Source: Melanopsichium pennsylvanicum
Taxonomy: Eukaryota; Basidiomycota; Ustilaginomycetes; Ustilaginales
Assembly (NCBI GenBank): GCA_900208305.1
Contig: OAPG01000019.1
Location: 1-64,000 of the forward strand
Direction: 5' to 3'
DNA length: 64,000 nucleotides
The position numbers and the translations under genes are program-made. Below are positions 891-38,337 of this stretch, one piece after another. Position 1 is the stretch's first letter, and each line of letters opens with the position of its first letter. Below the pieces are notes generated by a model, which did no database searches, had not been told where the DNA came from, and worked only from the letters and a program-made list of their open reading frames with translations.

Positions 891-1499
891 TTATGCATCT
901 CCATCGTGCTGCATGCTGCGTTCGACAGCTCTATACATCTTTGAACCATGTTTGCGGGTTTTCAACCGTCTGGATCTCCGCGCAAGTCGTTGGAATCCTT
1001 TGATGAGCTTGACAACGTATTTGGACAGCACCGATTCAAACAAAAAGCAAAGGATTGTGTTGAGTATAACTGCAATGAACAATGTAATGTGAAACGACGT
1101 AGGGAATTCGACCAAACCCAGAAGATCGACCACGAAGCCTGAGGGAGCGAAAATAGCATAGAGAGAGAAGCCGAAAAGCAGCGTGACAGTGGTCATCAAC
1201 CATAAGTTGGTCCATACGGGCTTTCTGTACGGGTAGCCCGTGCTATATACGATTGATCCGACCACATACTGGAATGAAGAGATCAAAAACACCGCAGAAT
1301 TCTCTGGATTGACTACGTTGAGTTCGTCCGGATCAATCTCTGGAGGTTCGTACCAAGGTTGACGGCGAGTGTAGTAAAAAGCCCAAAATTGGAAGCCACC
1401 GCAGATTACGACTTGACCGATGAGACTGACGAGGACTCTGACGGAGACAAGGTTGGCGGTTGGGGCCCTCGGATGGATGGGAGTGTGTACGTGTGAGTA
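891..1499 (-). pseudogene. ypk9: Detached C-terminal part (helices M7-M10 and tail) of the P5B ATPase
   Basis: From the TAC codon at 1499 to the stop at 891 this frame encodes 202 residues that match the C-terminal end of P5B cation/polyamine ATPases (yeast Ypk9, human ATP13A2). It begins at the conserved Pro-Thr-Ala-x-Leu segment before helix M7, then shows RRQPWY, an SSFQY motif in M8, PYRKPVWTN, M9, and M10 with FESVL, ending in a basic tail. There is no ATPase catalytic domain here. The open frame extends upstream to 1631, but those roughly 44 codons have no family counterpart and read into SurE upstream sequence. The missing N-terminal part is at 33,988-38,337 on the other strand. I infer this is the displaced 3' end of that gene, probably not translated from a proper start. 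Confidence 0.85.
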
Positions 1500-2003
1500 A
1501 GTACCGATGGTAGCCATGGTGACCGACGGCGAGCCTCGCAAGCGAAGAAGCTGCGGGTCGTATCGGACAGAGATGGTGGCTAGCAGGATTCGTGTTTCGC
1601 TGGGAGCTCGTGCTGATGATAAGCTGAGCACTGTTAGGAAATTCTGAAGCGTTTAGGTGAATGAGCAAAGAGAAAGAGAGGCTCGTTGAGATACGGTGAT
1701 GTACAAGTGCCCTGGTTTGAGTGGAAAATCCGAATTCTTGGCGATTTTCCTGCTGTTCGGTGCACGGAATATCTGACAAATTGACAGAGCGGGGGACGCA
1801 CAAGCCTCGGTTGTGGACCGACCGTAGGCATTTCCAGCGAGGTGTACGACCAACTTGGTTCGCCATTTCACAGACATTCATCGTTCTTTCATGTCGCGGT
1901 CTTCATCATTACATACATTCTTCACCTCACTGCTCCTTCTACTCGTGTCAATATTGGCTTACCGAGACCAAAAGCGCACATCCGCTCGTTCCAAACCCCA
2001 AGG

Positions 2004-2009
2004 TATATA
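2004..2009 (+). promoter_or_regulatory. TATA-like element upstream of the SurE gene
   Basis: TATATA lies 71 bp before the ATG at 2080, a normal spacing for fungal promoters. It supports 2080 as the main start, because the alternative upstream ATG at 1891 would lie before this element. Confidence 0.4.
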
Positions 2010-2079
2010 CATAGAAACGGAGCTCTCGGATACCCAAGTGCCGCCTCCCTCTCGTACTTCGCCCAGCTCCCCATGCATC

Positions 2080-3228
2080 ATGCCCAACAACACTCGCCCC
2101 AAAGTTCTACTCGTCAATGATGATGGGCCTCCTTCCCCTTCATCGCCGCACGTCCTTGGCTTGTACGAGTACCTGACAGCCCTTGGGTGGGACGTAAGCG
2201 TGGTTCTCCCCTCGTACCAAAAGTCATGGGGCTCGATGCAATTCTCCCTCGCCGGTCCCATCGCCTACTGGTACTACTATCCTCTCAAAGACAATTTTGA
2301 CGGCAAGGCTTCAGGCACGGCGGAATCCTGGTCTGCAACCCGTCGCCCCATCAATCGCGAACGTGGAGAGATCGCCGAATGGATCCTCATCGATGGTTCC
2401 CCTACCACTGCGTGCAATTCGGGCCTATTCAATCAGAACGCCTTTTTTGGCGACACACAGCAGGAGAGGCAGGCTGCTGCCAGTATCAGCACTCCATTCG
2501 ATCTCGTGGTTTCAGGACCGAACTTTGGCAGGAACACAGGCACCGCTTTCGCGCTCTCATCGGGCACACTCGGTGCTGCTCTTGCCGGATCTTTGGCAGG
2601 CGTCAAGAGCATTGCTGTATCTTTTGGGCACTTTACCGCCAACCCGCCCACTTTTGCTGATCGTTCAAAGTCTCATGGGCCCGGTTTGGAGCCATCTGAA
2701 TTGCGTCGCATTGCCACACAAGCCAGCCAATTCTCTGCATCCCTCATCGAGAAACTTTACAACAACTGGCATAACGAGCCCTATGTCGGCACATACTCCA
2801 TCAACGTGCCCCTTTGCGAAACCGTTTATAAGCCTGAAGTCCTGTGGACTAGAATCTGGGAAAATCGCTATGGTCCCCTCTTTGCTGTGGAGCCAATGTC
2901 CAAGTATGCGAACCCCCCTGCAACTGTCCCTGCGACTGCACCCAAACCAGAGAACATGCTTCACTTTGCACCCAACATGTCTTCGTTGCTGGGACCCAAA
3001 ACGTTGCCCGAAGCAACCGACGTATGGGCTATCTCGAACGGATATGTTAGCGTTACAAGACTCCGCCCCAACTTCTTGGAAGTCGACGCTAGCGGTAAAG
3101 GTCTCGATGTGCCATCGGAGGCAAAGGATGTGGTCGAGGAAGGAAGTTCCAAGATTCTGGATGCTCAGCTTGAATTGACAAAGACATTGGAGGATGGCTC
3201 GGAGGTTGGGAAGCGCTGGAGGCTCTAG
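2080..3228 (+). CDS. SurE-family 5'/3'-nucleotidase / acid phosphatase
   Basis: A 382-residue protein of the SurE survival-protein family, metal-dependent nucleotide monophosphatases; fungal members include Yarrowia Pho2 and the phosphatase-like part of yeast Pby1. The N-terminus carries the metal-binding VLLVNDDG motif. It is followed by WILIDGSPTTACN and the conserved SGPNFGRNTG and SSGTLGAALAGSL blocks, then GVKSIAVSF. ATG 2080 is chosen because the family fold starts six residues later and a TATA-like element sits at 2004. The frame stays open upstream to an ATG at 1891 that would add 63 residues, including a run of leucines resembling a signal anchor, so a longer isoform is possible. The 3' end converges on the gene at 3381. 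The exact substrate cannot be read from sequence. Confidence 0.87.
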   Translation: MPNNTRPKVLLVNDDGPPSPSSPHVLGLYEYLTALGWDVSVVLPSYQKSWGSMQFSLAGPIAYWYYYPLKDNFDGKASGTAESWSATRRPINRERGEIAEWILIDGSPTTACNSGLFNQNAFFGDTQQERQAAASISTPFDLVVSGPNFGRNTGTAFALSSGTLGAALAGSLAGVKSIAVSFGHFTANPPTFADRSKSHGPGLEPSELRRIATQASQFSASLIEKLYNNWHNEPYVGTYSINVPLCETVYKPEVLWTRIWENRYGPLFAVEPMSKYANPPATVPATAPKPENMLHFAPNMSSLLGPKTLPEATDVWAISNGYVSVTRLRPNFLEVDASGKGLDVPSEAKDVVEEGSSKILDAQLELTKTLEDGSEVGKRWRL

Positions 3229-3380
3229 ATAACCAATACGACGGATAGTACTCGAGAAGTTTAGACACAGGTATGGCAACTACATCCGCCATGACTCAAA
3301 AGCACAGTCGGGGTCGCCTTGCGAGAACTCTGCGGACTGATTCATGTAGAGACGGTGTTTTGATTGACTATTGAGTGCGG

Positions 3381-3790
3381 TCAGACACGGGGCTTGTCAG
3401 GGCCAGACTGGGAAGAGTGGACCTGCTTGTGTGTCTCGTTTGCACCAGCGTGCGTGTTGGGCTTGTTCTCGGGCAGGTCGATATCCTAGGGTCACCACAA
3501 CGATCAATGCCAGAACAACCATGAGCGAAGGTTCAGTTTTTGTGATCAGCTTTCGACAACGAAGAATTGGTTGCTGGGAGCGTACTTACGTGAGAGTGAA
3601 CTTCCTGACGAAGCTCATCACCGCCGCGACCACCCGTGTTGACATCGTCACGGCCAGCTTCAGCATTTGGAACGGTGTCGATGGGAACCTTGGGGTCAGC
3701 CTTCATGTTTTCGCCTCCGAGCGAGTATTTGTTGGGCAACGTGCCAGCAACTTCCTGCTGGGGGCCGCTGGAGATATCGATGTTGGACAT
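3381..3790 (-). CDS. Small hydrophilic protein, two exons, function unknown
   Basis: Exon 1 is 3790-3590 (67 codons), intron 3589-3486 (GTAAGT donor, CCCTAG acceptor, 104 nt), exon 2 3485-3381. Removing the intron keeps the frame and gives 101 residues ending ...PDKPRV. Without splicing, the frame runs into the intron for 18 codons. The protein is hydrophilic, rich in Gly, Asp, Asn and Lys, with no membrane helix, signal peptide or recognised domain, and is probably largely disordered. I do not recognise the family. The well-formed intron and uninterrupted frame across both exons argue that it is a real gene. It is convergent with the SurE gene, 152 bp away. Confidence 0.7.
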
Positions 3791-4555
3791 TTTGACGATT
3801 CCTGCAGCTTCTAGGATGAGCTGTTGCTATCGAAAGGTTGAAAAATGCAGACGTAGATACTGTTACTGTCGGTAGTTCGGAAGGGTACAGAGTGTCAGAC
3901 TGGAACTTGTAATGAGAGGCCTGATCAGGCACGCAAAGCTAGCGGCGGCTCCGCTAAGTTACACGGATTCGCGAGCAGAAGCCTGATTGCCAGGAGCGCT
4001 CTCACACACAGGGCGCGCATCGCTCTTATTTGGAAGCAAAAGCTTCTTTGAACCATTCGCTTCGCTAGCCTCACTCGAGCATAAAGAGCATCACAGCTGA
4101 TCTGCAAGAAATATTTCCATACGACTGCGTACTGTTCCAGACGCTGCAAACAGAAGTTGCTTCGCGGAAGGCTGAGTGAACCTCCACTCCATTTGTCAAA
4201 CCTCCCGAAAAAAAAACAAAAGTTTAAGCGATTGTGATTGTTGACAGCCGAGGCTGGGTAAAACGACGTGAGCTGGGTTTGACCAGGGTGACAGACCCTT
4301 ACAACAGAAGGTGGTGATGCGAAACCTCAGTCAGCATTGCCCATTCTCGGAAGCATCGTGTTCCAAAACAACTCCTATCTCGCATTAGCCCTGCTCGTCA
4401 CCGGATCAGACGAGCTCTATTTCAACGCTCACGTGATAGCAACACATCAACTTGTGTACCATGATCATTGGAAGGACGACAGTGCTTGATTCAGAGATGT
4501 GCGAGAGGAAAATTGCTAGAAACATTAAAAACAGGAACGAGAACACACAGGTCAA
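3791..4555. other. Intergenic region, nothing recognised
   Basis: Promoter side of the small gene at 3381-3790 and 3' side of the dehydrogenase. It contains a short A-run near 4207-4215 and no open frame with coding character. No tRNA-like T-arm was seen. Confidence 0.6.
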
Positions 4556-5863
4556 TTAAGCGCCAGGGACAGGTCCTAGCTCAGGAGTACCCTGAGCCCG
4601 AGGCTTGGAGTGCGTGGTCTCAATAAAGGCCTTGAGGTAAGGGATGCCCTTCGCCTCGTCGGTGCGCTTCTGGTCAAAGGCCTTGTAAGCTTTGGCAACA
4701 TCGTCGAAGGCGAAGCGGTGCGTAAGGATGAGCGTAGGGTCGAACTTTCCAGGAATGACGTACTCATTGATCACCTTGTCCATGTAGCGCTGGACGGGAG
4801 CCTGGCCGTTGCCCTTCAAGGTGATCGCCTTCATCATCAACGCACCAATGAGGAAGCCGCCGCAGACACCCGCGTAGTCGGCGATCACGCTGATGCGTCC
4901 ACCTTTGCGAGTGGCTCGAATGGCCTCGTTGAGCGTCTCTGGGGTGTCCGTTTCGAGCGCCAAAGTCTGCATGGCGCGGTGGAGGAACGATTTGGAGTAG
5001 CGGAAGCCAGCCGCGTCAAAGGAGACATCCACGCCACCGGGGACTTTCTTCATGATCTCCTCAGCCACCTTGCCAGTGTGGTCGAAGTTGATGACCTCGA
5101 TGTCGAGGCGGTCCTTGGCCCATTGCAGACGAGGGGCAACGTTGTCGATGAGAATCACCTTCTTGGCGTCAAACACCTTCGTGAGCCATTGAGCAATGAG
5201 CTGCCCGATAGGACCGGCGCCCCAGATGGCGGCGGTCTCGCCTTCCTTGAAGCCAATGTCGATGACGCTGTGGTAGGCAGTGAGCGAGACGTCAGCCAGG
5301 AGAAGAGCCTTCTCGTCGGGGATCTCGTCGGGCAGGTGGAAGCAGTTCACGTCACCATAAGGGATGCGGAAATATTCAGCCTGGGTACCGGCGTAACCAC
5401 CGAGAAGGTGCGAGTAGCCGAGGATACCGCCGAGCTTTTGACCATAAATTTGCTCCAACTTGCCGCTCTTGTTGGTGCGGTCGCACTGGTTGAACTGGCC
5501 GTCCTTGCAGTTCTGGCACGAGCCACAGGCAACGGAGAAAGAAGCGACAACACGATCGCCGACCTTGAACCTGGTGATCTGGGCGCCGACCTGGTCGACG
5601 ACGCCAACACCCTCGTGGCCGAGGATCTCACCCTTCTCGATGTCAGGAATGTCACCGTGGAAGAGATGAAGGTCGCTGCCGCAGACGGTGGCGCCGGTGG
5701 TCTTGATGATGATGTCCGTCGGGTCAGTGATGGTGGGCGTGTCCACCGTCGAGACGCGGACATCGCGCTTACCGTGCCAGGTGAGGGCGTGCATGGTAGA
5801 CTCGCCGGGCTTGTAGCCTGGAGCCGTGCCGGTTGGAAGCTCTCCAGGGGCAGAGGAAGACAT
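4556..5863 (-). CDS. Zinc-dependent medium-chain dehydrogenase, formaldehyde-dehydrogenase-like
   Basis: A 435-residue single-exon member of the zinc alcohol dehydrogenase superfamily. The catalytic zinc region shows C61-G-S-D and G-H83-E84. The structural zinc loop has four cysteines, C113, C116, C119 and C127. The nucleotide-binding fold carries the glycine motif in IWGAGPIGQL. A long C-terminal half and the insertion around ALETDTPETLNEA are typical of the formaldehyde-dehydrogenase-like subgroup rather than classical yeast ADH. It should oxidise an alcohol or aldehyde adduct with NAD(P)+, probably in the cytosol; the substrate cannot be told. A TATAAA on the same strand at 6031-6036, 168 nt upstream of the ATG, may be its promoter. 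Confidence 0.85.
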   Translation of the reverse strand: MSSSAPGELPTGTAPGYKPGESTMHALTWHGKRDVRVSTVDTPTITDPTDIIIKTTGATVCGSDLHLFHGDIPDIEKGEILGHEGVGVVDQVGAQITRFKVGDRVVASFSVACGSCQNCKDGQFNQCDRTNKSGKLEQIYGQKLGGILGYSHLLGGYAGTQAEYFRIPYGDVNCFHLPDEIPDEKALLLADVSLTAYHSVIDIGFKEGETAAIWGAGPIGQLIAQWLTKVFDAKKVILIDNVAPRLQWAKDRLDIEVINFDHTGKVAEEIMKKVPGGVDVSFDAAGFRYSKSFLHRAMQTLALETDTPETLNEAIRATRKGGRISVIADYAGVCGGFLIGALMMKAITLKGNGQAPVQRYMDKVINEYVIPGKFDPTLILTHRFAFDDVAKAYKAFDQKRTDEAKGIPYLKAFIETTHSKPRAQGTPELGPVPGA

Positions 5864-7081
5864 TGTGGTGCTGCTCTTCGGTGAGTTCCGTGAGTCGACT
5901 GACGCTTAAGAGGTTCTCGAAGCTGGAAGGTATCAAGAATGCGAAGATGATGGTGTTGAAGCAAGGAACTGGAAAGTGGACGAAAAGGGGGAAAGCTACG
6001 ATGGCGGGTCAGATACGGACCGACACCGTCTTTATACTTACAGTTCGGTCGCTCCTGGACTCAGCCATCAGTGTGTCTTAGCAGAACTGACTTAGCCGAC
6101 ACTCGTTGGTTTGTGAAGAATGGGTGTCAGGCCAGCCGAGCGTAGATAGAGCAGTGAGATGGTGCCTTGGCTGACGTTGAGCCAGGCACACGACATCACG
6201 AGATCAGTCACAGCAGCACTGAACACGGGCTCCGTCTGGCTGCCTGGCCATTCGTTGTCGACACGGGATGGGCACGGAGCACATTAGCATTCTTCGAGCA
6301 TATGGGCCTGAAAAGCTGGAGTGAGTCGAGTGACGACTCCTGGCAGGGAGTGAGTGGTATTAAACGGCTACGCTATCTCTACTAATTGTGGGAGGGGGAA
6401 ACAAGCTGACTGTCGTGCGCCACGTGTGGGTTCCCGCTGATCAGGGTCTAAGCATCGAAGCTGCACATTCGGGCCGTCTCAACGGAAAACAGCGGTGGCT
6501 ATGAATCATTCATTTGATATTCGCCGGTCGCTGTCAAACAGAGGCGTTTCTGTGCATGTTCAGTAACTAGCTGTGGAAGAAGGAAACCGAGCCGGGTGAA
6601 TCAGCAACGCGGTACGTTACACGCCGCGCCCCACTGGCTAGGTGATTCTGAGGATCGAGATGCAATCATCGTATCTCCACCGCTTTCTCGGCCCGTGTGC
6701 TCGTCTAGACCGTCTCTTCTCGCCGGCATCAAGTCTTTTGGTGGGCCTACTTTTGTTTAGCTATGATAACTCTTCCGAAGTTTGATGTTTGCAAGAGTAT
6801 CCCTTAGGGCAATTTAGAGAAAGAAAAGAAAAGAAAAAAGGACAAAGAAAGGACGTCCGAGACAGATTGCGAAAAGTCTGACCTTAAATGCTCGATCGCA
6901 GCTTCCTCCAGCAGTACAAGTCGTCGAACCCATCACTCTTTCACATTCGCATTCTCTGCACTGCTGACACGGAAGATGCGCAAGACAGACTTCATAGAGT
7001 TACCAAGTAACTTGAGAGGACATGCAGAGGTATTAAGGAGGCAGTCAAGACGGCGTCGATTGTGGGAGCAGAATCGGGTCA
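5864..7081. other. Intergenic region (dehydrogenase promoter; 3' side of the TFIIB-like gene)
   Basis: About 1.2 kb between two minus-strand genes. It holds the likely dehydrogenase promoter and a purine-rich tract (A/G) at about 6818-6856. Open frames here are short, and none resembles a known protein. Confidence 0.6.
6031..6036 (-). promoter_or_regulatory. TATA box candidate for the dehydrogenase gene
   Basis: TATAAA on the minus strand (TTTATA on plus), 168 nt upstream of the ATG at 5863. It is the best TATA match in the region. The evidence is positional only. Confidence 0.35.
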
Positions 7082-9118
7082 CTAATCGCTCCAGTCGGAC
7101 TCTTCTTGTTGTTCACGGAGCGAGATCTTTGAGCTTATTCGTGCAACTGTGCTTGCATGGTAATTCGTTGGCTGTGACGATGATTCATGCGTAGGATGCT
7201 GCTTTCGTTTGTGAGCGTGCTTCCGTTCGAACTCGGAGGAACGAGTTGGAGAAGGCTCTGCACAGCCATTGCCCTTGATCTGGCTTTGGGCGTAAAGAGC
7301 GAATTCGGCATTGCGCTGGCGCTCAGACTTGACCGGCCAGTCTCCTGCAGCGATCTTGGCTTTCTCGAACGCAGCCAATTCGTCCGGATCCGTTCGCAAG
7401 ATCGCTGCGAGCTCATTATCATCGAAGAGAAACTCATCAACTTGGTTATCATTGAGCAGATCGATTGGATGATTTTGAGATGCCGACCCGTTGAGAGCAG
7501 CCGCATCTTCGAGCTTCTTTCTGATGCGCGGCCATGCCGCGACACTCTTGTCTTCTTTCGTGCTTTCTTCATCGTCTAATGCTGAATTCGAATCTGTTGC
7601 CACGTGAGTCCCACCTACCGCAGTCGAAAGGAAGCAATCGAACTCGACCTGGTCGACCTCCTGATCCGACAGAGACTCTCCAGAGGCATCAACTTGCAGT
7701 GAATGAGCCTTATTCCCTGAATGTGATACTGCGATGTAGTGGTGGAGAGTTGATAACATCCCAGCAGATTCTATTTTCTGGGGGTCAGATGCAGGGCCAT
7801 CGTCTGTACGGGATGATGAAACGCTCCTCCACACGTCAAGTATGTCGAGAGCATTGACTACCACATCGCGACGGTGCAACTCCGCCGCGCCGTCTGCGCT
7901 GGATTTGGCGGATTTCAGGCTTGTGGAAGGCTTTGAGGCACGCCGACTTTTTTGGCCATTGGCCAGAGCTAGCGTCATGCCGGTGAGCCAGGGTATCTCG
8001 TTTGCTTGTTGCTTGAAAGCTGCGATCATCTCCTTGTAATATTCGACAGCGGTTTTACTAAGGGGGTCTTGATCGGTGAGCTGCGGAGCGCTGGCCTTTT
8101 CGGAGCGACGGGCGGTGACTCTAAAGGCCAGAGCCTGATGGGTGTAGCGAAAAATTTCAGAGATGGGCGCGAGAGCCTTGATGTGAGCTTCAAGAGCCGC
8201 GACGACGATTGCAAATGCAGCAAGTTGAGAGGGGACAGAAGCCGTAGTGGCTCGCTTGGCCCACCAGAATGCGCAAAGATCAAGCGCAGTAGCCTCGACA
8301 GCTTCGAAGGGAGTGTTGCACAGGATACGAGCAGGATCAGAGCTGGTCGCGATGGCAGCGCCAGAACTTCTGCTTTGGAGAGGTTGAAGGAATTTGAGGA
8401 CCTTGTGGTTGAGAACCGAAGAATCAGTACGTGAGAGATGGAAGTGAAAGAAAGCTAGGATGCGATGTAGATATGGGTCCGGGTTTGCGAGTTTGATGCT
8501 TCGAACAGCATCTGTGACGAGAACCTTGAGCCACTTGAAGGCACGCTTCACCTTTTGTGAGGGCAACTGAGCAGCATCGGCCACTGTGTCAATGTCGATG
8601 CGAACTCGTTCGCGGCGCAAGACGGCGTAGCAGCAGGCGGAAGCTAGGAAGAGTGAATCATTGCCCCATCTAATCTTAGGAACAGCGGCGCAAGATTGGA
8701 TTTGGCTCCGGCTCGTTTCGGCTTGTTCGGGGAGTTGTTTCCATGATTCGGATCGAGCACGATCAAAAAGAAAGACGATCTGGTCAAAGAAAGCTGGATA
8801 ACCAAGGCGCGAGAGGGCACCCTGGATTCGTGCTTCGACTTCGGGTCTGCGTCGAAGCTCGTTGATGCGTCGATTGTCGTCGAGACCGCTCGACCATGGG
8901 ATGCGACCTTCAGGTCCGATTGGACCGAGCAAGGACGTGGTGGAGGTGCGGCGTTCTGACGGTGCACCCAGAGTATAGGCTATTTCATGAACATTGATGG
9001 GTTCGTAGCTCTGAAAGTCTTGTGAGACAGTGCCACAAGTAGAACAGACATTCTGACCGACTTGAGCAATGAAAGTGATGGTGTCAGTCGATCCGCAGTC
9101 GGGGCAGGTCTGCTGCAT
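7082..9118 (-). CDS. TFIIB/Brf-family transcription factor with N-terminal zinc ribbon
   Basis: A 678-residue protein starting with a TFIIB-type zinc ribbon (C5, C8, C25, C28). A first cyclin-like fold is recognisable around residues 80-215 (LFLASACCYAVLRRERV ... VKRAFKWLKVLV), with a second, more divergent repeat around 260-370. The C-terminal 300 residues are low-complexity apart from an acidic block (LLNDNQVDEFLFDDNELAAI) that resembles the TBP-binding homology block of Brf1. This suggests a subunit of RNA polymerase III factor TFIIIB, but a lineage-specific TFIIB paralogue is also possible. The start is firm because the ribbon begins at residue 5. It is divergent from the RSC9-type gene across a 989-bp region. 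Confidence 0.7.
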   Translation of the reverse strand: MQQTCPDCGSTDTITFIAQVGQNVCSTCGTVSQDFQSYEPINVHEIAYTLGAPSERRTSTTSLLGPIGPEGRIPWSSGLDDNRRINELRRRPEVEARIQGALSRLGYPAFFDQIVFLFDRARSESWKQLPEQAETSRSQIQSCAAVPKIRWGNDSLFLASACCYAVLRRERVRIDIDTVADAAQLPSQKVKRAFKWLKVLVTDAVRSIKLANPDPYLHRILAFFHFHLSRTDSSVLNHKVLKFLQPLQSRSSGAAIATSSDPARILCNTPFEAVEATALDLCAFWWAKRATTASVPSQLAAFAIVVAALEAHIKALAPISEIFRYTHQALAFRVTARRSEKASAPQLTDQDPLSKTAVEYYKEMIAAFKQQANEIPWLTGMTLALANGQKSRRASKPSTSLKSAKSSADGAAELHRRDVVVNALDILDVWRSVSSSRTDDGPASDPQKIESAGMLSTLHHYIAVSHSGNKAHSLQVDASGESLSDQEVDQVEFDCFLSTAVGGTHVATDSNSALDDEESTKEDKSVAAWPRIRKKLEDAAALNGSASQNHPIDLLNDNQVDEFLFDDNELAAILRTDPDELAAFEKAKIAAGDWPVKSERQRNAEFALYAQSQIKGNGCAEPSPTRSSEFERKHAHKRKQHPTHESSSQPTNYHASTVARISSKISLREQQEESDWSD

Positions 9119-10107
9119 CGTACAGCACCAATCAGTAGAAAAGGCATGAAAGCATGTTACGTCTGCCGTCGAAGTGGTACATGAAGAAGCATCACGTCAT
9201 ACCTAGCTGTGCTGCTGATCAAACATGAAGCCGTGACGCTGAGGAAGTCGTTGCGGCAATTGTTCCGAACAATGGGTTGAGCTGATGCAAGATGGTGGGT
9301 GAAAGCAAAGTGAATGGACCCGCAGTGTGCTGTTTTCTCATGCACGAGACTACTTTTTGTGCAGCTTCAATTCTTTGTTTTGAAGGTTGTTAGATCGGGA
9401 CAAGGCTGTCTTGCATTTTATTCGCGTCACGACACGACTCGAAAGGGTGAACAAGATTTCGACTTAGAGTTTTGGCGGGTGGGCCGCTTCTGTGGCTTTT
9501 CGCTCATCATGTGTGCTGTACTGTCCTGTGTATACTGTGATAATACAGATGGCAACAAGCAATACATTCGACCTTGAAGGCTCTTCCTCAACATCACAAC
9601 ATTTGCTCGGCCTCCGAGCCTACATTTTGCCTTCACTCCTTTTCCAATCGCCAAGACAATTACTGACAGGTGACATTGGCTTTGATCAGGCGCCACATCA
9701 ATTCGGCTCACCCAACACTGTCTTTACCAAACATCACGATTCCTATACCCTCTTCAATCTCTATCCGAGATCTGTATCGGCTCGCCTCCGCCCAGCTTCG
9801 GAGCAATCCGATCGCGTTGACTGCTCAGCCTCTCTGACATTTCATCAAGCTCAAACAACTTGAATGCAGCACATTGTTCAACATCGCAGTGTGGCTGTGT
9901 CGAGACCTAATCACGATTGACACTGCTTTCAAACTGCTTCTGGTATCGAGTACGTGTGCACCCTCAGACGTAGCTGTATCCGAGCTATAGGAACCTCGTC
10001 TCATGCGATAGCATCCGTCAACAGTGCAGTGACAGCTCCGATCAATCCGTCATCTCCATCCCACATTTCATCTTGGCCATCATTTTGCTCCGGCCAGCTG
10101 AAACCTC
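9119..10107. other. Divergent promoter region between the TFIIB-like and RSC9-type genes
   Basis: 989 bp between two divergent ATGs. A plus-strand open frame with ATG near 9549 (about 104 codons) lies inside, but it has no recognisable domain and a composition like the surrounding non-coding DNA, so I do not call it a gene. No other elements were recognised. Confidence 0.55.
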
Positions 10108-27604: not shown

Positions 27605-28028
27605 TATGTCGAATCCTGGTGTTCGCACCAAAGCTGAACGAATCTCCAGATTTCCGCAAAATGTGCGTCGTTTGGAGATGATCGGTGTGAGAGAAGTTGT
27701 GGTGAAGGTGACGAGCACGATGGATTTGGAAGGCGTTAGCGTCGAAAAGGGATGAGGAGAATGTTGTAAGGGTCGCGTCGTGCTGCGCCCAGAGTTTCAA
27801 ATCTCCCGATCTGAATCCAACTCTGTCACGTGCGAGTCACAAAAATCAGCGACCCAATCTTGTGTCAGCAGTGGAAGCTGAGACGCGTCGCGAGAAGAGT
27901 GTTGTTCTTTTTGATGTGCACCTGTTCAACCTGCATGTTCGCTCAGCTCGAAATCACCATCTTAGCAACTGCTTGACAACCATCATCTTTCTTGACATTG
28001 TAGCTCTCAACGCTCTATCAAAGCTGCT
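27605..28028. promoter_or_regulatory. Shared divergent promoter of CENP-A and the Msd1-like gene
   Basis: 424 bp separate the two ATGs. It contains ACGCGT at 27,883-27,888, extended as ACGCGTCGCGA, and CACGTG at 27,827-27,832. ACGCGT is the MluI cell-cycle box bound by MBF in yeasts and by related APSES factors in other fungi, and centromeric histone genes are usually cell-cycle controlled. Binding here is inferred. Confidence 0.5.
27883..27888. promoter_or_regulatory. MCB-type ACGCGT box
   Basis: A palindromic hexamer 279 bp upstream of the CENP-A ATG and 141 bp upstream of the coiled-coil gene's ATG. It could serve both directions. It is one exact match, so chance cannot be excluded. Confidence 0.4.
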
Positions 28029-30779
28029 ATGGCCGCATCCGACCCGCAGCCCGCTGCGAAAGGGTCCCAAGCGGCATCAGCCGAACATGGCCCTTCACCT
28101 GGCGCCTACCACCACCTCCCCGACTTATCCGCAGACATCTCGATGGACACAGAAAATGTCACAAGACCGACATTTGAACAGCTCAACGCTGCCCTCATCT
28201 CCAGAGGATACCTCAGATCGCCACTCAACGTGACTGGTATGCGTGAAGAATCGCTTGTCGCTCTTTCCGACACACTACACGCTATGGTCGCTCAACGAGA
28301 AGAAGATATCGAAGTCCGCACAGCCCTGACTGCTAAGAATCGCTCACTCACAGCATCTCTGGAACGGACAAAGCGCTTTCAAAAGGAAGAATTGGAACGA
28401 TCTGCAGACCTTGAACGCAAAGTCGAAGCTTCCAAAGCAAAGCTACTTCACCTCGCAACCCAGCTCGACACGGAGCGCAACGCTCAGAAAGCAGCCAAGG
28501 AGGCGCTAGGTCGCATGCGCAGAGACTTGCAGGCGATCAAGGCTTCAGCACTTCAGTACAAGGCTGCCAATGATCGATCCGTAGCCAGGGTCAGGGCTCG
28601 TATTGGAGAGGTCACTGGCTCAGCCATTCGTTCTGCCGTTCCTGACTTTCAAATCGTGGCATCTGCATTTGACGATGTACCGACTACGTCCACCCCGAAA
28701 GCAAGTGCCACAGCACTGTACGTACGGCAAGTGCAGGAGCTCGAACAGAAGCGCGCACACCTCGTCGAATACAACCAGGCACTGAAGCGCTTTGCTACCG
28801 AAGCTATAAATGCTATTCGCCGTGCAGATCAAGAACTTGTCGACATGGTCGAAGCAGAGGAAGATGACGTCAAGAGGCGGGATCCATCCAGCACCGCAAA
28901 GCCAAACAGCGAATCCAGCAACATGCGCTCTGTCTCTTCAAGTAACTTGAGCGGCAACGCAGCTGTCAAACGATTAGCATCTACCGATGCATGGCTTTAT
29001 GGTCACCGGCCTTTGTTCCAACGCGATCTTTTCCCTGCCAACGACACTTTCCGATCAACCTCCTCGGGCGCGTTCGTCTCCGCATCATCCAGCAAGACCC
29101 AGCATCCAGCACTGCGAGCGCTTGAGCTCACTTCTACCGCCGTCATCTCCCACGTCCAGTCCCTCCTCGATTTGCGCACGGAACGCACCATTCACGAAGC
29201 TGCACAGAGTCAGCGTCTGTCTGCAGAAGCTCGCGAGCAGGTGTGGGCAGCAGAACTCGAACAGGTCATTCAAGAAGACCTGCGAAGCGATGCTCGCCTC
29301 TCGCTCAACAAGATGAATGGGCCAATACAAGGGGGCTCTTTGGCATCCGCTGCCATTGCAGCCTCGAGCGGGTCGTCTGGCGGAGGTGCGTCGCACCGCA
29401 TCGACTGGCAAAAAGAGAAGATTGAGCTGGAGAAGAAACTTGCTCAGCTTGTCAAACAGGTTGCTCTCGCGGAAGAAAATGCAGTCAGGAACGGAAAGCA
29501 AGCCAGGAGACTTGCTGAAGCAGAAAAAAGCGCGCGGAGCTTGCTTGAGCAGGCTTCATGTTTGGGGTCTGCAAAAGACGAGGGTGCTGAAACGTCTCCG
29601 GATGCTTTGCAAGAAGCTGAAAGGCTCAAAGCGGAGTTGCATGCAGTAGAGCATGAGCGAGATCGGTACGCGAAACGATGCGAGATGCTTGAAGCGGAAG
29701 CACAGGAGCTTCGCAGCGAGCGCGAACGTGTCCTTTCTGCCCATAGCGGGCCGTTGGCGTGCACGCAAGCTTCGAGCTCTGAACTTACATCACTCAAGCG
29801 GCTCGACGAAGGCGAAATGGCCAAGATACATGCACTCGATCAGAAGCATCGTAAAGAGCTCAGTCATCTTTCTGTTGTTGCGGAGAACAGTGAAGTGCAG
29901 CCTCTGACCGAAGCACGCAAAAAGGCAGAGATTGGCGGGAAGGAAACGGTTGAGAGCACCGATGCCGCAACATCTCACGCATCCGTTCGGAAGGAGAGAA
30001 GCAACCGGGGATCTGCTGACACGGGCACGATCAGTTTTGGCGAGAGCTTTGGGAACAACCCTGAGCTGGATTCCATCTTTGGTGTGAAACGGTCTTCGGC
30101 GGTCGCTAACCCCAAGAGGGACGCAGCTCCGCGTCGATCCTCAAGACTCTCGGGTGGTAGCGCTGACGCTGAAGCTGTGACCCCGATTGGTGACGAGCCT
30201 ACCAAAGCATCAGAAAGCGGGACCCGCAAGCGCAAGGCCGGTGAAGAGGACCCATCGCCATTGATGGGGCCTAGTAGCGCAGGAAGGAGGAGGGCAAGCC
30301 GTCGCCTCTCCAATGGTAAGGCTTCCAAAACAGACTTCGAGGAGCTCTCTTCACACGCGTCAAAACAAACAAAGGCTGAGCATCGATCTTCGTCCTCTTT
30401 AGAAAGCGTGACTGTTGGACAAGATGCATCGTCAGAACCAGTGTCGGAAACGCTTCCACCGAACGTCGCTCGATCAAGCCGACGGCTCTCGACGCGTGAG
30501 AAAGAAGAGCTCGATCGAAAGCACAAGCGCAAGGCTACCACCTCCGATACTGTTCAATCAAAGACACCCGCTTCTACTTCCAGAAGAATTGTTTCGGCCT
30601 CATCATCTGTCAGTCGACCAACCGTGGCGTCACTGAGCCGAAGCGAAGCTCTTCAAACGAGCGCGAAGCGTCCGCTATCAAACGCCACCAACACACGCCA
30701 AAGCCTAACTCAAGCTTTGAGGCCTACCAAGGCTCATGCCCGTGTCGTGTCTTCGGCCTCCATTCGAGCACGCTCTTGA
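28029..30779 (+). CDS. Coiled-coil protein with ADIP/Msd1-like N-terminal region
   Basis: A 916-residue protein. Residues about 48-200 (TFEQLNAALISRGYLRSPL ... followed by a long heptad-rich helix) resemble the afadin/alpha-actinin-binding (ADIP) domain found in SSX2IP and in fission yeast Msd1, proteins that anchor microtubule minus ends at centrosomes or spindle-pole bodies. Further coiled coils lie at about 370-420 and 455-630. The last 280 residues are Ser/Lys/Arg-rich with several RRSSRLS-like basic patches that could be phosphorylation or nuclear-targeting sites. No catalytic domain was seen. The gene is divergent from CENP-A, consistent with a mitotic role. The family assignment rests on a short region and is moderate. 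Confidence 0.6.
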   Translation: MAASDPQPAAKGSQAASAEHGPSPGAYHHLPDLSADISMDTENVTRPTFEQLNAALISRGYLRSPLNVTGMREESLVALSDTLHAMVAQREEDIEVRTALTAKNRSLTASLERTKRFQKEELERSADLERKVEASKAKLLHLATQLDTERNAQKAAKEALGRMRRDLQAIKASALQYKAANDRSVARVRARIGEVTGSAIRSAVPDFQIVASAFDDVPTTSTPKASATALYVRQVQELEQKRAHLVEYNQALKRFATEAINAIRRADQELVDMVEAEEDDVKRRDPSSTAKPNSESSNMRSVSSSNLSGNAAVKRLASTDAWLYGHRPLFQRDLFPANDTFRSTSSGAFVSASSSKTQHPALRALELTSTAVISHVQSLLDLRTERTIHEAAQSQRLSAEAREQVWAAELEQVIQEDLRSDARLSLNKMNGPIQGGSLASAAIAASSGSSGGGASHRIDWQKEKIELEKKLAQLVKQVALAEENAVRNGKQARRLAEAEKSARSLLEQASCLGSAKDEGAETSPDALQEAERLKAELHAVEHERDRYAKRCEMLEAEAQELRSERERVLSAHSGPLACTQASSSELTSLKRLDEGEMAKIHALDQKHRKELSHLSVVAENSEVQPLTEARKKAEIGGKETVESTDAATSHASVRKERSNRGSADTGTISFGESFGNNPELDSIFGVKRSSAVANPKRDAAPRRSSRLSGGSADAEAVTPIGDEPTKASESGTRKRKAGEEDPSPLMGPSSAGRRRASRRLSNGKASKTDFEELSSHASKQTKAEHRSSSSLESVTVGQDASSEPVSETLPPNVARSSRRLSTREKEELDRKHKRKATTSDTVQSKTPASTSRRIVSASSSVSRPTVASLSRSEALQTSAKRPLSNATNTRQSLTQALRPTKAHARVVSSASIRARS

Positions 30780-30883
30780 AGCTGATTTGGCTAGCATACC
30801 CATCTATGTGCTGTATGGAAAATCTGTCATCGCACAATTGCGCTTGTGTGTGTTGCTGCTCGGACAGGGGTTTGACAGCAAGT

Positions 30884-31309
30884 CTAGGCCTCAAAGTCGT
30901 AAATGAAAGCGTCTGCGAGTGCTGGCTTGACCTTTTGCTATATGTAGTCGACGCACCGAGCCATACATTGCATATGTGCGAAAACGAGCAAGTTGTCAGC
31001 GCTCCGAGCTTCGTCTACCTTAATCAAACGACTACTTACGACAAAAGCCAGGTGTACCGGGTCCTTCTCGAGATAATATTTAACGTGCTCCTGAGATGGG
31101 AAAGTGGAGATGAATATGTGGTGGAATCCCTTGCCTGCGCCCTCGGGCGATATGTTTTGGGTCGAGCTCTTGAAGTCGAGAATGTAGGGTTTGTCGTCAG
31201 TGTCTAAGCATTTCGATTTGAAAGTGTTGAATTGATCATAGATCTCTTGTCTCTCGGAGGACGAGACCGAGTCCTTGTACTTGAAAGAGACTATGTGGAT
31301 GATTGGCAT
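30884..31309 (-). CDS. Stress-responsive Dabb (dimeric alpha/beta barrel) protein
   Basis: Exon 1 is 31,309-31,040 (90 codons), intron 31,039-30,938 (GTAAGT ... ATATAG, 102 nt), exon 2 30,937-30,884. The spliced product has 107 residues. It starts MPIIHIVSFKYK and contains the FHHIFISTFPSQEHVKYYLEKDPVHLAF block typical of Dabb domains, and exon 2 supplies the usual closing strand (ADAFIYDFEA). Without splicing, the C-terminus is unlike the family. Dabb proteins are small dimers; some are stress-induced or act on polyketide-like substrates. No specific role can be assigned here. Confidence 0.85.
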
Positions 31310-31691
31310 TCTTGCAAAGCAAAGATGATGAGGGTATGGTGGAAGGCGTCGAGATCACAAATAGCTAATAAGTTAGTTGGATACCAAGATGCAATCACGA
31401 TTGGCGCTCTGAGTCCGGGTGGAGGTATTTACTCTGCTGCGTGCATGGACCATTCGTCTCGTCAGAGAGACTGAAAAGGGACTGATAATAATAATATCGA
31501 AGTTCAGCTCGACTGTGGAAGCCATACACCAATAACGCTGTGAACATGCTGCACGAAGCTGTCTCAACTGCTCTACAGCTTAAGTTACCTGGTCATTTGA
31601 GGCGCGTGAGCGAGAATCATCCTTAGTCGAGCAACCAAGGGGAACCTCACCGCAGTACAGCTCGTCGTTGAAAAGAACAAGTATCCCTCAG

Positions 31692-31988
31692 ATTGCAGAG
31701 TGGGTCTCACAAATTGTGAGCGCCAAGGCAACCCCAATTCCCATCGCCGAACAGGATTGGGCTGCAACCTTCAAGGAGGCGGGCATGCCCGACAAGATCA
31801 CCGGTCTGTTTGTCGAGCTGACTGCAGGTGTCGTACACGATCACATTGTAGTTTTGGACGGTGCTGCCATTGAGCTGGAGAGGCAGCGAGGCATCTCCGT
31901 CATTTCGGAACAGACTCATGTCGACTACAAAGCCGTAATTAAGGAGCTTGTCGATCAGGTGAGGCAGGCCACTTTCACCTCCTCCTGA
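31692..31988 (+). pseudogene. C-terminal remnant of an NmrA-like NAD(P)-binding protein
   Basis: About 98 codons (IAEWVSQIV ... IPIAEQDWAATFKEAGMPDKITGLFVELTAGV) resemble the substrate-side C-terminus of NmrA/HSCARG-type atypical SDR proteins. The N-terminal Rossmann fold with its GxxGxxG motif is absent: I find no matching sequence upstream as far as the Dabb gene. The frame has no upstream ATG; the first in-frame ATG is about 30 codons in. It begins directly after TATCCCTCAG, a good splice acceptor, so this could be a last exon whose earlier exons were lost. I interpret it as a gene relic. Confidence 0.6.
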
Positions 31989-32197
31989 TCATGTCAAGCA
32001 TGCATAGATCTGTGATGGCTTCTTTGTACCTCTTTCGAGGAGCTTCAATTGCTTCCGAATCCCTTCTAACAATGCTTCACAGTTTGAGTAGAATACAACT
32101 GTACACTTTCGCTACGTATGAATAGATCGTGATCCTGTGGTCGTTCGTGCACGACACTCAAGTTGTCTGACTTCACAGGAACAAAAGGTAAGCGACA

Positions 32198-33716
32198 TCA
32201 CGATGAGTGCAGAACATCCTGTTCTGCCGCCAGACGAATCTGCCACGATAGCTTGTATGTCTTGAGCGCATCGGCAAAGCTGCTGAGAGGTTCTTGCGGC
32301 ACATTGTCCAACGCCAAAGTATTGTCGGCATTTGAGAGACTTGAACGGACGAGACACTGGAATTCAGTCAAGAACGCATCATCTTCGAGCCGGATGATCT
32401 GCTCCTCTGCTTTGTGAGGGCTTCGGATAGCAAGGGTTGTTATTGCGTCGTATGCGTTTCGAACGCGAAGGATCCAGCCGTCTGCGAGTACTTCGATCTC
32501 TGTATCATATGTAGTGCCTGAGAATTATAAGTGCCATTGTTTACAACGAGATTTCAAAGTCAGTCATGATTCAGCCCTTGCATGAAGAAAGATGGCAAAG
32601 ATGGACAATTGACTTACCGTGTAGAGTGATGCCGTGAGTGAGTGATCCGATGGTGCCCTGCAATTTTCATGAAGCATGTCCGACGAGTACGTAAAGCGCA
32701 AAGGAAAAGGAGGTCAGAATGTTTTGCACAGTCCTGCACAAATGCAATCGGCGGTTTGTTGGCAATCTCACCTTTTGATGTTTCCAAAAAGCATTTGTCA
32801 CTCTCGGCACTCGCTCTTCGGATGGAATCAAAGTCTCATCGAAACCAAGCTGGGAAAGCGCACCGACTGGTTCTGTGTGCGTCACTGTAGTGGCTCTGAC
32901 ACTGCCCAGCATTGCATCGTTATTGTCTCCGGCAAGGAAGCGGATGAGGTCGATAAAGTGCGTCGCTTGCTCTACTACTGGTCCACAGGAGTGTGACTTA
33001 TTCCACCAGTCGAGCTTCCGAGCATATTCATAAGCCATGTAGTATCTTGCATTGATGCACGTTGGCGTCAAGCCGTTCTGGTGCAGGATCTCGCGGATCT
33101 TGAGAATCGCCTTGTTGTAGCGCAGCATGTATCCCACGCTCGTGTATCCAGGTGCTGCCGCAAAGCGAGAAGCTACCTCATCACAATCATTACTTAGGAA
33201 TGGGTTGATGGCTGAGACGGGCTTCTCGACCAGATACGACTTGGCTTTTGGAAAGTGCTCAAGCATCTCAAGATCGGCTCTTTTGCCCGGCTGCAGCGCG
33301 CCCCTGAAGTGTGGGGGGCATCCAAGAATCACAAGATGGACCTCATCGTCGCCGTTGGCTATTAAGAGCGCTGCTGCCTCTGCAATGCAATTAAAGGCCT
33401 TTGTTAACTGCCATGCTGATCGCACGTCGGGGTCACTACAAGCGCGCTTGTCACGTATACGCTGAGCGGCACGAGAAATGTCGGGATCAACGAGAGCGAT
33501 GAAGTGTAACTGAGTTGCGCTGTTCTTAAAGATTTGTTCCAGTCTTGCAGAGTGGTTCCATGGACCTTCCGGCGAGCCTATCCATGACAAAGTTAGCAGA
33601 GGTGTCAGTTCTTAGTGCTCTCGATGATCTCTGATTTTGTGTGCAAAATGATCGGTCTGCTTACCGAAATTGATCTCGCCCGCCCCTATTATAACTACCT
33701 TGAAAATGCCCGACAT
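32198..33716 (-). CDS. Gfo/Idh/MocA-family oxidoreductase (four exons)
   Basis: Exons are 33,716-33,665, 33,577-32,772, 32,657-32,618 and 32,517-32,198; introns are 87, 114 and 100 nt with GTAAGC, GTGAGA and GTAAGT donors. Splicing gives an unbroken 405-residue protein. The nucleotide-binding motif VVIIGAGEINFG is split across intron 1. The conserved EKP triad (YLVEKPVSAIN) lies near residue 130, and the C-terminal substrate domain contains GPVVEQATHFIDLIRFL, a GGxxxDxGxH-like segment. These enzymes oxidise or reduce sugars, inositols or related compounds with NAD(P); the substrate is unknown here. It shares a 271-bp divergent promoter with the P5B ATPase gene. A single-exon reading would lose the N-terminal glycine motif and the last 120 residues. 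Confidence 0.87.
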
Positions 33717-33987
33717 GGTGTGTGTGGTATCTTCTCAAAATCACACGCTATAGTGAAAAATCGGAAGCTCGCCTTTTTATTTCCCTCGTCTCGTCACAAC
33801 GCAGCTGGAAATTTGGCGTTGGGGTCGGAGTTGCCGAGGCTGCACGGCCTCTGATGCTGTGTAGTCTCAGGTTTTTATTTTGGCTCTGTGTGCCTTGCAC
33901 TCCATCACTGGCCTACAATAATCGGAGCCCTCCCATCTTCCTATCGACTTGACTCAGCATCGGATTGCTAAGAGAGATACAATCACC
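33717..33987. promoter_or_regulatory. Divergent promoter between the Gfo/Idh/MocA and P5B ATPase genes
   Basis: 271 bp between two divergent ATGs, AT-richer than the flanks near 33,770-33,920. No clear TATA box was found. Confidence 0.4.
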
Positions 33988-36900
33988 ATGTCCGAGTTGC
34001 GCCCAGGTGATCGCCGCGGACAGGTGTCATCCAAGTCTCAGCACCCCTTTGAGGTCGCAGGAGATGAATACCAAGCACCATTCCAGCTTCCAGCCAAGAA
34101 AGCAGCCATCGACAACGACCAGACCGCCGACCAAGCAGATGTGACAGAGTTCGCCTCTTCACCCTATTTTGACGACCAAGAGGCACGCGAGGCATTCGAA
34201 TGGGCTCAGTCTCAGCGCGAGGCCGACGCAGATGCTAGCAACGACGCATCCGGTGGTGTCGAGATCGGTCGTAGAAAACGTAGAGATAGTCAGGTCGGTA
34301 GCTACGATGAAGGCGGAACCATCTTTGATGGGCCCGGAGCAGGGGCCGTACCCAGTTCAGTGAGCAGTATGCGTCACGAGATGACTAGGCCGGAGCTTGG
34401 CCGACGAGCTTCACGAAGTTCTCGTCGTCGCATCTCGATGGAAGGACGCTCGCCACGCCGTTCTCGCAAGCTTTCCAGTGCTTCGGTCAACAGCGAAGCT
34501 GTCACCACGTCAAGCGAGCGCAGCATATCGCCAGACTCTGTTGCCGGCCGCCGCAAGCCTGCGAGCCAGCGAAGCGGAAGCACCTATCGCTTCGGCCGCA
34601 GGAAGCGTATACCTGAAGATGCGGACCTCACTGGCTCCAGCCAACCCAAGGGAATGCTTGGATCCATTCTCGCCTCTATTCGTGGCGATCGTGGCGATGT
34701 CGACGACGATACCCGCAGCCGCCGCTCTTCGTCTCGGCCTCTACTTTCGCATAGACGCTCGTCAGGCTCGGTCGTCTCTTCGCGCACAGGACGTTCAGAC
34801 GTAGAGCTCGATGACGCAGACCAAGAAGAGCGTGATAGTAGGGGCTGGAGCGACGACGACTACGGCTTTGATGATGAACATGACGATGATGACAGCTCCT
34901 ACCACTCATCTGACGACGATGTATCCAATCGCAACGGTATTCTTCCCTCCGCCTTCGGTACACTAAGCGGCGCAGTTGACCCCGTCTTTGGAGACACTCG
35001 CTTCTCCACCGATCATCCACCCGAGGACGAGCTGGATGCCGAACTCGGCGGTCGCGAGCTCGAGGGGGGCAATGCCTCGGGCTTCGGTCGATCCGAGGGC
35101 GACCTTAGATCCAGCTCTCACGCTCGTGATTCTGGCGTCCGTGCAGCTGAAGCCAAACGCGAGCTCACTTTCCTCGACAAGTCCTCCAAGAGTCGTCAGC
35201 AGATATACCTTACCGAAGAAGACACCATCATTCGTTTCACCGGCTACCGCACTCTTGTGGCGAACCAGATCATTTATTCGATCGTCTGCTGTCTCACTTT
35301 AGGCATCGTTTACCTCATTGGGCGGTGGTTGCCTCGCTTCCGTCTCAAACGGGTCTGCAGGGAGATCGAGTTTGAGAATGCCGAATTCATCATGATCGAG
35401 AACCAGTGGGGCGATCTTCACAAGGAAAAGCTTACAACAATCCCTTTCGCCCGTCCTCTCGCCACTGTATTCCCACCTTCTTCTCGAGAACCACCTGCCA
35501 CACAAGCCGAGTTTCAATCAGCGCCGACCATCAATTTGCCTCCCGAACTCGTTGGCAAGAGCAATGCACCATTCAAGATCGCATCTGCTAAGAGCAGCAT
35601 CCTCAACGGCGGCAATACTGCCAACGGCAAAGGTAACGGCACCGACTCACCCTTGATCGACGGGCTGCCCATGCTTTCGGGCGTTCAGACCGAACAGCTC
35701 ATGGAGCTGACCTTCTTCGACTTCAGATACACTCGCTTTGCTCTTCATCCGCCCACAGGCCGTCTTCGCATGGTCAAAGACTGGCGAGACCCACTGTGGA
35801 CTTCGCTCGCTACCATCAATGATGGAATCAGCTGGGACGCCGAAAAGGATCGCACCACCATCTTTGGCAAGAATGCCATCGAAATCCAGGCCAAGTCCAC
35901 TTGGCAATTGCTGGTAGATGAAGTACTTCATCCATTTTACATGTTCCAGATCGTCTCGATCATCCTATGGTCCTTCGACAATTACTACTACTATGCCTTT
36001 TGCATCGCAGTCATCTCTCTTGCATCCATCTTCACCACCCTCATCGAGACTCGTCAAACCGTCAATCGCATGCGCGAAATGAGCAGATTCTCCTGCAATG
36101 TCAGAGTCCTGCGCGAGGGTAATTGGCAAGTTCTCGATTCCGGCGATCTGGTACCAGGCGACGTTTACGATGTCGCTGAGCCCGGCCTTCTGCTCTTCCC
36201 AGCCGACAGTGTCTTGTTAAGCGGAGATGCCATTGTCAACGAGAGTATGCTTACGGGAGAAAGTGTTCCCGTCAGCAAAATGCCCCTCACTACCCCTGCT
36301 ATGGTCGGCCTTCATGCCGCTGGCACTGATGTCACCGCCGATCTGGCCAAGCATTTCCTGTTCTCAGGCACTCGAATCATCCGTATCCGCGGCAGCGGAT
36401 CCACTGACAAGAATGAGGCAGGTGCCAAAGCGATGGTAGTCCGGACCGGTTTCAACACCACCAAAGGCGCTTTAGTGCGCAGCATGCTTTTTCCCAAACC
36501 CATGGGTTTCAAGTTCTATCGTGATTCTTTCCGCTTCATCGGCTTCCTCGCTGCCATTGCCGGTATCGGCTTTACCTTTGCTGCAGTCAACTTTGTCAAG
36601 ATCGGCATCGCTTGGCAAACCATCGTCATCCGTGCACTCGACCTCATCACTGTCGTTGTCCCCCCCGCACTGCCGGCTACCATGTCTATTGGTATCTCTT
36701 TCGCTATCAATCGTCTGCGCAAGCAGGGGATCTACTGTATCGCACCCAGTCGAGTGATAATTGGAGGTAAAGCCGACGTATTCTGCTTTGACAAGACGGG
36801 TACTTTGACTGCAGAAGGTCTCGATGTTCTTGGCACGCGAACCATTGATCTAAAAGCTGGCAGGTTCAGCGAGCTGCATGAGACGGTCGACGAGATGCCT

Positions 36901-38337
36901 GTGGGTACCGGTACTAAGACGGATACCGATGCACGCAAGATGCCTTTACTCTATGCACTTGCCACCTGCCACTCTCTCAAAGTGGTCGATGGGGAGGTGA
37001 TCGGCGACCCTCTTGACGTCAAGATGTTTGAATACACCGGCTGGACGCTTGACGAAGGTAAAGATCGCGCTGCCAAAGCAACCACTAAGGCCGGTACGGC
37101 AAGAGATGGCAAGTCGAAGCTCACCGAGCGTCCTCCTGCACTGGTACAGACTGTTGTTCGACCACCGGGCGGACAGGCCTTCGAAGTTGAGGACGCCATC
37201 AAGTCTGGCCGCCACGCGCATTTCCTCGAGCTTGGTGTCCTGCGCACCTTCGAATTTGTGTCGTCTCTCCGAAGAATGAGTGTCATCGTCAAGCGTCTCA
37301 AATCACAATCCATGGAGGTGTTTGTTAAGGGCGCACCCGAAGTCATGGCCGATATCTGCGACAAGGACACCTTCCCAGCCGACTACGACGATCTTCTTTC
37401 GTACTACACCAAACACGGATATCGTGTCATTGCATGCGCAGGCAAAACGATGGCGGGCATGAGTTGGATCAAAGCTCAGCGCATGCGTCGAGAGCAAGCC
37501 GAGAGCGGTCTTCGATTCTTGGGTCTCATCATCTTCGAGAATAAGCTTAAGGAAGGCACCGCCCCTGTGATTGAAGTTCTCCAGCAGGCCAACATCGTCA
37601 CCAAGATGGTCACGGGTGACAATCCTCGCACCGCGATCAGCGTAGCGCGAGAGTGCGGCATGATTGGCCCTTCTGCACACGTCTTTATGCCCACGTTCGT
37701 TGAAGGCGATCAGAGGGGCCGTCGTGCGGTGATTGAATGGACGAGCGTCGACGACGACCGTATCAAGCTCGACCCATACCATCTACAGCCTCGCGAGGTG
37801 GACCCTCATGTCCTTGACCTAGAAGAGTTCGATTTCCAGGATTACCAGCTTGCGTTGACCGGCGATGTTTTCAGGTGGATGGTCGATTTCGCAGCCATCG
37901 AGACGTTACGCAGGTTGCTCATCAAGGGAACCGTGTTTGCACGCATGTCCCCGGACGAGAAGCACGAAGTGGTGGCCCGCCTGCAAGCATTGGGGATGAC
38001 AGTCGCATTTGTGGGAGATGGATCGAACGATTGCAGTGCCCTCAAAGCTGCTGACATCGGCATCTCGCTGTCTGAAGCTGAAGCATCGGTCGCCGCCCCT
38101 TTCACCTCCAATAGAGGCGACATTAGCTGCGCGATTGACACGATCAAGGAAGGAAGGGCGGCACTCGTTACCTCGTTCGGTTGCTTCAGCTACATCTGCC
38201 TGACATCGCTCATCCAGTTCTCTTCTATTACTCTCTTATACAGCTTTGGATCTAGCTTGAGTGATTCGCAGTTTATGCTGGCAGACTTCTCTGCTTTATT
38301 GTTGAGCGTCTTCTCTGCTAGGACTGGCCCAGCATGA
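33988..38337 (+). pseudogene. ypk9: P5B-type ATPase, 5' part only (lacks helices M7-M10)
   Basis: 1449 residues from ATG 33,988 (the frame is open to 33,949 but begins with TTG). An acidic, Arg/Ser-rich disordered N-terminus (1-390) is followed by P5-specific N-terminal helices, the A domain with TGES at about 756, PPALPAT in M4 at about 892 (P5B type; P5A has PPELP), phosphorylated D935 in DKTGT, KGAPE, TGDNP at about 1208 and GDGSND at about 1342. Helices M5 and M6 end in SARTGPA, then TGA. Family members continue for about 200 residues with M7-M10. Nothing downstream encodes these; they lie at 891-1499 on the minus strand. Intact homologues (Ypk9, ATP13A2) are vacuolar/lysosomal polyamine and heavy-metal pumps. 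The truncated protein is unlikely to fold as a working pump. All catalytic motifs remain, so the break looks recent or artefactual. Confidence 0.9.

Follow-up and report, generated by a model that had tools for sequence, protein, structure and literature searches.

In a stretch of 64,000 nucleotides from the smut fungus Melanopsichium pennsylvanicum (positions 1 to 64,000 of contig OAPG01000019.1, assembly GCA_900208305.1; the whole stretch is hereafter called the window), the gene for a P5B (ATP13A2/Ypk9-type) ATPase is found as two complementary pieces, which lie on opposite strands, 36.8 kilobases apart and with other genes between them. The large piece codes for the catalytic domains and the transmembrane helices M1-M6, and the small one for helices M7-M10 and the C-terminal tail. 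We consider it likely that this arrangement is the product of an ancient, probably single gene fission in the smuts, after which both products were kept and work together as a two-chain pump.

Two complementary pieces of a P5B ATPase

The large-chain gene (33,988-38,337, plus strand) codes for 1449 residues, comprising a long N-terminal region, the P5 N-terminal domain, the actuator (A), phosphorylation (P) and nucleotide-binding (N) domains and helices M1-M6. Its frame is open and undamaged, and it ends just past M6 with SARTGPA followed by a TGA stop. Against the NCBIfam P5B profile TIGR01657 it scores 947.2 bits (curated cut-off 618.25), covering profile positions 4-903 of 1055, and its Pfam matches include PF12409 and PF00122. 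The P5B motifs are kept, with TGES in the actuator domain (36,253-36,264, plus strand; residues 756-759), VPPALP in M4 (36,658-36,675, plus strand; residues 891-896), which is named as the P5B signature in PMC8233418, and the phosphorylation motif DKTGT (36,790-36,804, plus strand), whose D935 is equivalent to D680 of Ypk9; GDGSND is also present. Section 7 of the same article gives D630, Y1157, D1177 and D1184 as the spermine contacts of Ypk9, and the three acidic ones are kept, as D885 (equivalent to D630 by alignment) and as D1426 and D1433 (equivalent to D1177 and D1184 by motif and spacing). A separately deposited protein of M. pennsylvanicum 4 (P0003) agrees with the large chain at every one of 998 aligned columns (100% identity). 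Both have the hinge motif in the form VGDGSNDCS (38,011-38,037; residues 1342-1350), which deviates at three positions where C, A and G stand in the remaining eight split species and in the 22 unsplit fungi of the comparison below.

The small-chain gene (891-1,517, minus strand; 208 residues) supplies M7-M10 and the tail, and its frame is likewise open, in agreement with the original prediction that both halves are otherwise undamaged. The start of this piece had been placed at 1499; it has, in fact, its own ATG at 1517, which sits in a good start context (GGTCACCATGG), and the six codons ahead of the 1499 joint are the small chain's own N-terminus. TIGR01657 matches it at profile positions 921-1054 with 77.6-79 bits (the query started one codon past the ATG), which is below the cut-off, as expected of a fragment, and a Pfam search gave no match at 0.001. 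The predicted structure of the small chain is helical, and its best 15 Foldseek matches are all P5B ATPases.

The division of the gene into complementary halves, as first claimed, holds on two yardsticks: the TIGR01657 spans given above and the solved P5B chains 7op1 and 7op5, on which the large chain aligns to residue 1200 and the small chain from residue 1196 (or from 1200 with the family profile). The ten transmembrane helices are therefore not in one polypeptide, M1-M6 and M7-M10 being in separate genes, and for this reason we file the pair as a split variant and not as an ordinary P5B member.

The window contains no undetermined base (N). DNA searches of the organism's own 21.1 Mb genome with positions 1-1900 and 37,900-39,000 gave no second copy of either junction, and a protein search of the same genome with the small half returned nothing besides that half itself and one paralogue of 34% identity. 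Neither type of search thus turned up either half a second time. Inverted repeats at the junctions were ruled out as the cause of the split, since none of at least 18 bases touches either junction and the regions 1400-1900 and 38,234-38,733 share no inverted 9-mer.

Distribution and origin of the split

A protein collection was searched with residues 400-1440 of the large chain, and the best 120 of 4720 matches were considered. The window and its 19 closest listed relatives (P0003-P0021) all have the stop after SARTGP[PAY] (20 of 20) and are all smut-type, comprising Melanopsichium, Ustilago, Sporisorium, Pseudozyma, Kalmanozyma, Testicularia and Thecaphora, unnamed records and one record labelled Cichorium, which looks like smut contamination. 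In the next 101 homologues listed (P0022-P0122), the linker motif leading into M7 is present in 100, and the exception (P0075) breaks off early. A search with the small chain gave 38 proteins, 26 of which (P0123-P0147 and P0149, P0123 being the window's own) were assigned to a stand-alone smut family that includes UMAG_05267 of U. maydis (P0144). These proteins mostly have about 206 residues (19 with 205-215, two with 245, one with 286, one with 307, and three short models with 142-166), and their start methionine lies 8-19 residues before a PIHP motif in 18 of the 26 and further away in three, the motif being altered or the model short in the remaining five. Outside the family, P0148 has M5-M6 ahead of the tail and is apparently part of a gene without the split, and P0150-P0160 are weaker matches. 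The public names of the small protein are hypothetical, uncharacterized or, as truncated names, cation-transporting ATPase.

The split had originally been taken as either young or an assembly error, and a split shared by relatives had been named beforehand as part of what would speak against that view; such sharing is what we found. Judged from these proteins, a young inversion and an assembly error are both rejected as explanations of the split, because the 19 closest listed relatives share the stop and the tail stands alone in such species. The prediction of an inversion keeps one part, namely that one gene was cut in two, possibly by a rearrangement, and loses its young age.

A tree was made quickly from 57 rows of the large-chain core, without the short P0018, P0040 and P0041, and was rooted at its midpoint for drawing. 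In it, the 19 split rows fall on one side of a single branch with a support of 100 in the Shimodaira-Hasegawa-like approximate likelihood ratio test (SH-aLRT), and the split clade adjoins the unsplit Violaceomyces palustris. Thecaphora belongs to the Urocystidales, Violaceomyces to the Violaceomycetales and, according to the NCBI taxonomy, Pseudozyma flocculosa to the Ustilaginales. With the split proteins in a single clade whose neighbour is the unsplit Violaceomyces, a single fission, dating from before the Ustilaginales and Urocystidales separated, is probable. One dated phylogeny (PMC4738420) gives an age of about 209 (137-285) million years for the ancestor shared by Uleiellales/Violaceomycetales and Urocystidales/Ustilaginales. 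On our tree, the fission would thus fall between that node and the later separation of the Urocystidales from the Ustilaginales.

In the window, the small-chain gene has as its neighbour a SurE-like phosphatase/nucleotidase gene (1,891-3,228, plus strand; PF01975), and the 373-base gap between these divergent genes (1,518-1,890) is probably, from the layout alone, a promoter region shared by both. A search for the relatives' DNA in contig collections gave one bacterial ATPase from genome contigs and nothing from viral contigs, and for this reason the gene order in relatives was read from locus tags, assumed to follow position. By this measure, the small gene is one to two tags from SurE in all four split species in which both tags are visible (small/SurE tags UTRI_06282/06281_B, SPSC_05204/05205, PFL1_05399/05398 and ACQY0O_003804/003802), and in all five unsplit genomes with both tags (two of T. 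horrida and three of Malassezia) at least hundreds of tags separate P5B from SurE. The large gene is 6 tags (P. flocculosa) and 12 tags (T. frezii) from the small one, with SurE between, which is the same order as in the window. The simplest story is that a rearrangement set the tail beside SurE, whose divergent promoter could then serve it, with later shuffling; the gene may instead have been cut in place and rearranged afterwards.

Constraint, a remodelled M5-M6 and the rival explanations

To compare the constraint on the two pieces, we took nine split species for which both proteins were available and a selection of 22 unsplit fungi from the match list. All nine split species keep 378 of the 415 columns of the large part, and 33 of the 47 columns of the tail, that are invariant in the unsplit set (these counts ignore gaps, and the tail of P. 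hubeiensis is a short model). At six of the columns that do not vary among the 22 unsplit fungi, all nine split species have another residue in common, and five of these six fall within residues 1392-1449 (38,161-38,334, plus strand), a stretch with 30 of the alignment's 416 invariant columns (hypergeometric P 8e-6). This stretch covers M5-M6, and by the alignment it is remodelled on the same stem as the fission. M5 and M6 are expected to touch M7-M10, so that the changes may reflect a new interface, a changed cargo, or both.

The same genome holds an intact, unsplit P5B frame of 1349 codons on another contig (C11; L021:732-4781, minus strand), which scores 906.8 bits against TIGR01657 (cut-off 618.25) and is the paralogue that is 34% identical to the small chain in its tail part. 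It is a second, divergent P5B, although a statement in PMC5837089 speaks of one P5B isoform in fungi; our own count for this genome rests on a PF00122 search and the small-chain protein search. Given this intact frame, the strain has a P5B gene regardless of what the split pair may do, and the originally supposed loss of its P5B pump finds no support, both pieces of the split gene being conserved as well.

In the mechanism that we propose, a fission on the stem of Ustilaginales and Urocystidales would have cut the P5B gene at the cytosolic M6-M7 loop, leaving a large chain with the N-terminal, A, P and N domains and the six-helix transport (M) domain, and a small chain with the four-helix support (S) domain M7-M10 and the tail, translated from its own ATG and driven, in the window, from the promoter region shared with the SurE-like gene. 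The two chains would insert separately into the membrane, with the topology unharmed because both new ends face the cytosol, and would assemble next to each other to form a single polyamine-type pump of the endomembranes or the vacuole, which would run the usual phosphorylation cycle on D935. What the sequences show is the split and its conservation, the complementarity of the pieces, the retained catalytic and acidic residues and a tree that fits one origin; the expression of both chains, their assembly, their location and the cargo are what we infer.

Several observations weigh against this two-chain pump, or against parts of it. The median ratio of tail to core distances is 2.25 in the split species (36 pairs) and 1.25 in the unsplit ones (231 pairs); the pairs are non-independent, and the split values overlap the upper end of the range seen in 49 closer unsplit pairs (0.90-2.84). 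The constraint on the small chain may thus be partly relaxed, and we read the tail as being under a maintained but looser constraint. The residue equivalent to Y1157 of Ypk9, placed by spacing, is T1406, with threonine in 9 of 9 split species and tyrosine in 22 of 22 unsplit fungi; this is a single contact and does not define the family. Additionally, M6 is apparently one residue shorter in the split clade, from alignment and spacing. With the tyrosine replaced and M6 shortened, polyamine as the cargo is less sure than pumping itself. The proteins of the relatives are database gene models, the structure model of the small chain has only moderate confidence (predicted local distance difference test 74.9, predicted template modelling score 0.62), and the two-chain pump as a whole is drawn from sequence and predicted structure.

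Part of the same evidence is what an improbable, though not negligible, alternative would build on, in which the large chain pumps alone with six helices while the small one has taken on a different role, or in which the pair is inactive and the C11 paralogue does the P5B work. The faster evolution of the small chain, the remodelled M5-M6 and the existence of an intact paralogue all fit it, and a review (PMC10654040) treats a six-helix M domain as common to P-type ATPases; the features of M7-M10 and the conserved tail are nevertheless kept in the nine split species, together with the 33 deep invariants counted above. That the halves are instead joined at the RNA level, by trans-splicing or by splicing over the gap where they are adjacent, so that the mature protein is one chain, we regard as very improbable. 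Nothing is duplicated or missing at the joint, and the tags of the large and small genes are consecutive in U. loliicola (NDA16_002430/002431) and P. hubeiensis (PHSY_005570/005571), where a joint transcript is conceivable and which is a further point against two independent chains. However, every one of the 20 sequences has the stop of the large frame at an identical position, and the small frame has its own well-placed ATG and an N-terminal piece that varies, which is what independent translation would lead one to expect. In addition, the genes are on opposite strands with others between them in the window, and they lie 6 tags from each other in P. flocculosa and 12 in T. frezii. Hardly any credence is left for a young inversion or misassembly that destroyed one pump gene in this strain. 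The exact complementarity of pieces on opposite strands is what such an event would leave, but it is rejected because relatives share the cut: separate tail proteins come from several genera and sources, the SurE neighbourhood of the small gene is common to relatives (by tag), and P0003 ends at the same residue, even if it may derive from a related assembly. The junctions, with no shared inverted 9-mer and no N, also speak against it.

The ancient fission with both products kept is, then, the reading that we prefer. A bolder form of it, which we put forward only as a tentative and rather doubtful possibility, is that the smuts have an obligate two-chain P-type ATPase with a separately regulated support subunit, and that the same stem event reshaped the substrate pocket (tyrosine to threonine in M5, one residue lost from M6) and changed the cargo, so that the pump would no longer be a plain polyamine exporter.

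Genomic setting, known pumps and significance

The small-chain gene is the first frame of at least 150 codons from the chromosome end, with its stop about 730 bases from the telomere repeats, and this subtelomeric place could influence its expression. A dispersed repeat begins at position 161, directly after the telomere array; the region concerned is 1-395 of the window, as well as 1-399 of contig C23 and further places in the genome, and 51 of the 53 listed matches to positions 1-1900 of the window fall within 161-405 of the query. Since similar sequence extends upstream of the 161 breakpoint in the seven other repeat copies checked, the telomere seems here to have been added onto a broken copy.

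Compared with Ypk9 (7op1-7op8) and human ATP13A2 (7n70 and others), the smut pair has the same domains and motifs, VPPALP, the phosphorylated aspartate and the three acidic spermine residues, and its halves cover consecutive parts of those chains. It differs from them in being encoded by two genes instead of one chain, in the threonine in place of Y1157, in the apparently shorter M6 and in the fixed changes of M5-M6. The C11 paralogue of the same genome is also P5B by TIGR01657, but is unsplit. The partners found in KdpFABC, in Na,K-ATPase (alpha/beta) and in the P4 flippases (Cdc50) are not, as far as we know, pieces of the catalytic chain, whereas the smut partner is made of the chain's own support helices M7-M10. 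In all of these systems, as PMC10654040 presents them, the catalytic chain likewise has a separately encoded membrane partner. In the same article, the six M helices count as one domain and the additional S helices as another, and the P-type ATPases that it describes there carry transport and support helices on one catalytic chain.

In the open-licence literature (subscription papers and preprints being outside this scope), no title or abstract opening among the papers listed describes a P5B or other P-type ATPase that is split in smuts; the phrase "heterodimeric P-type ATPase" does occur, once in each of ten listed papers, and their titles and abstract openings describe no split P5B or other split P-type ATPase. 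We therefore call the split pair a variant of the known P5B family that is apparently undescribed.

The split is a gene fission of probably single origin, with a plausible route to expression beside the promoter of a divergent neighbour. Being kept across a fungal clade, it would constitute a natural experiment, indicating that the pump can do without a covalent connection at the M6-M7 loop. It would also isolate the support domain as a unit that could be removed, swapped or titrated, and in this way would give a handle on the role of M7-M10, which is relevant to ATP13A2, whose loss is described as causing a form of parkinsonism.

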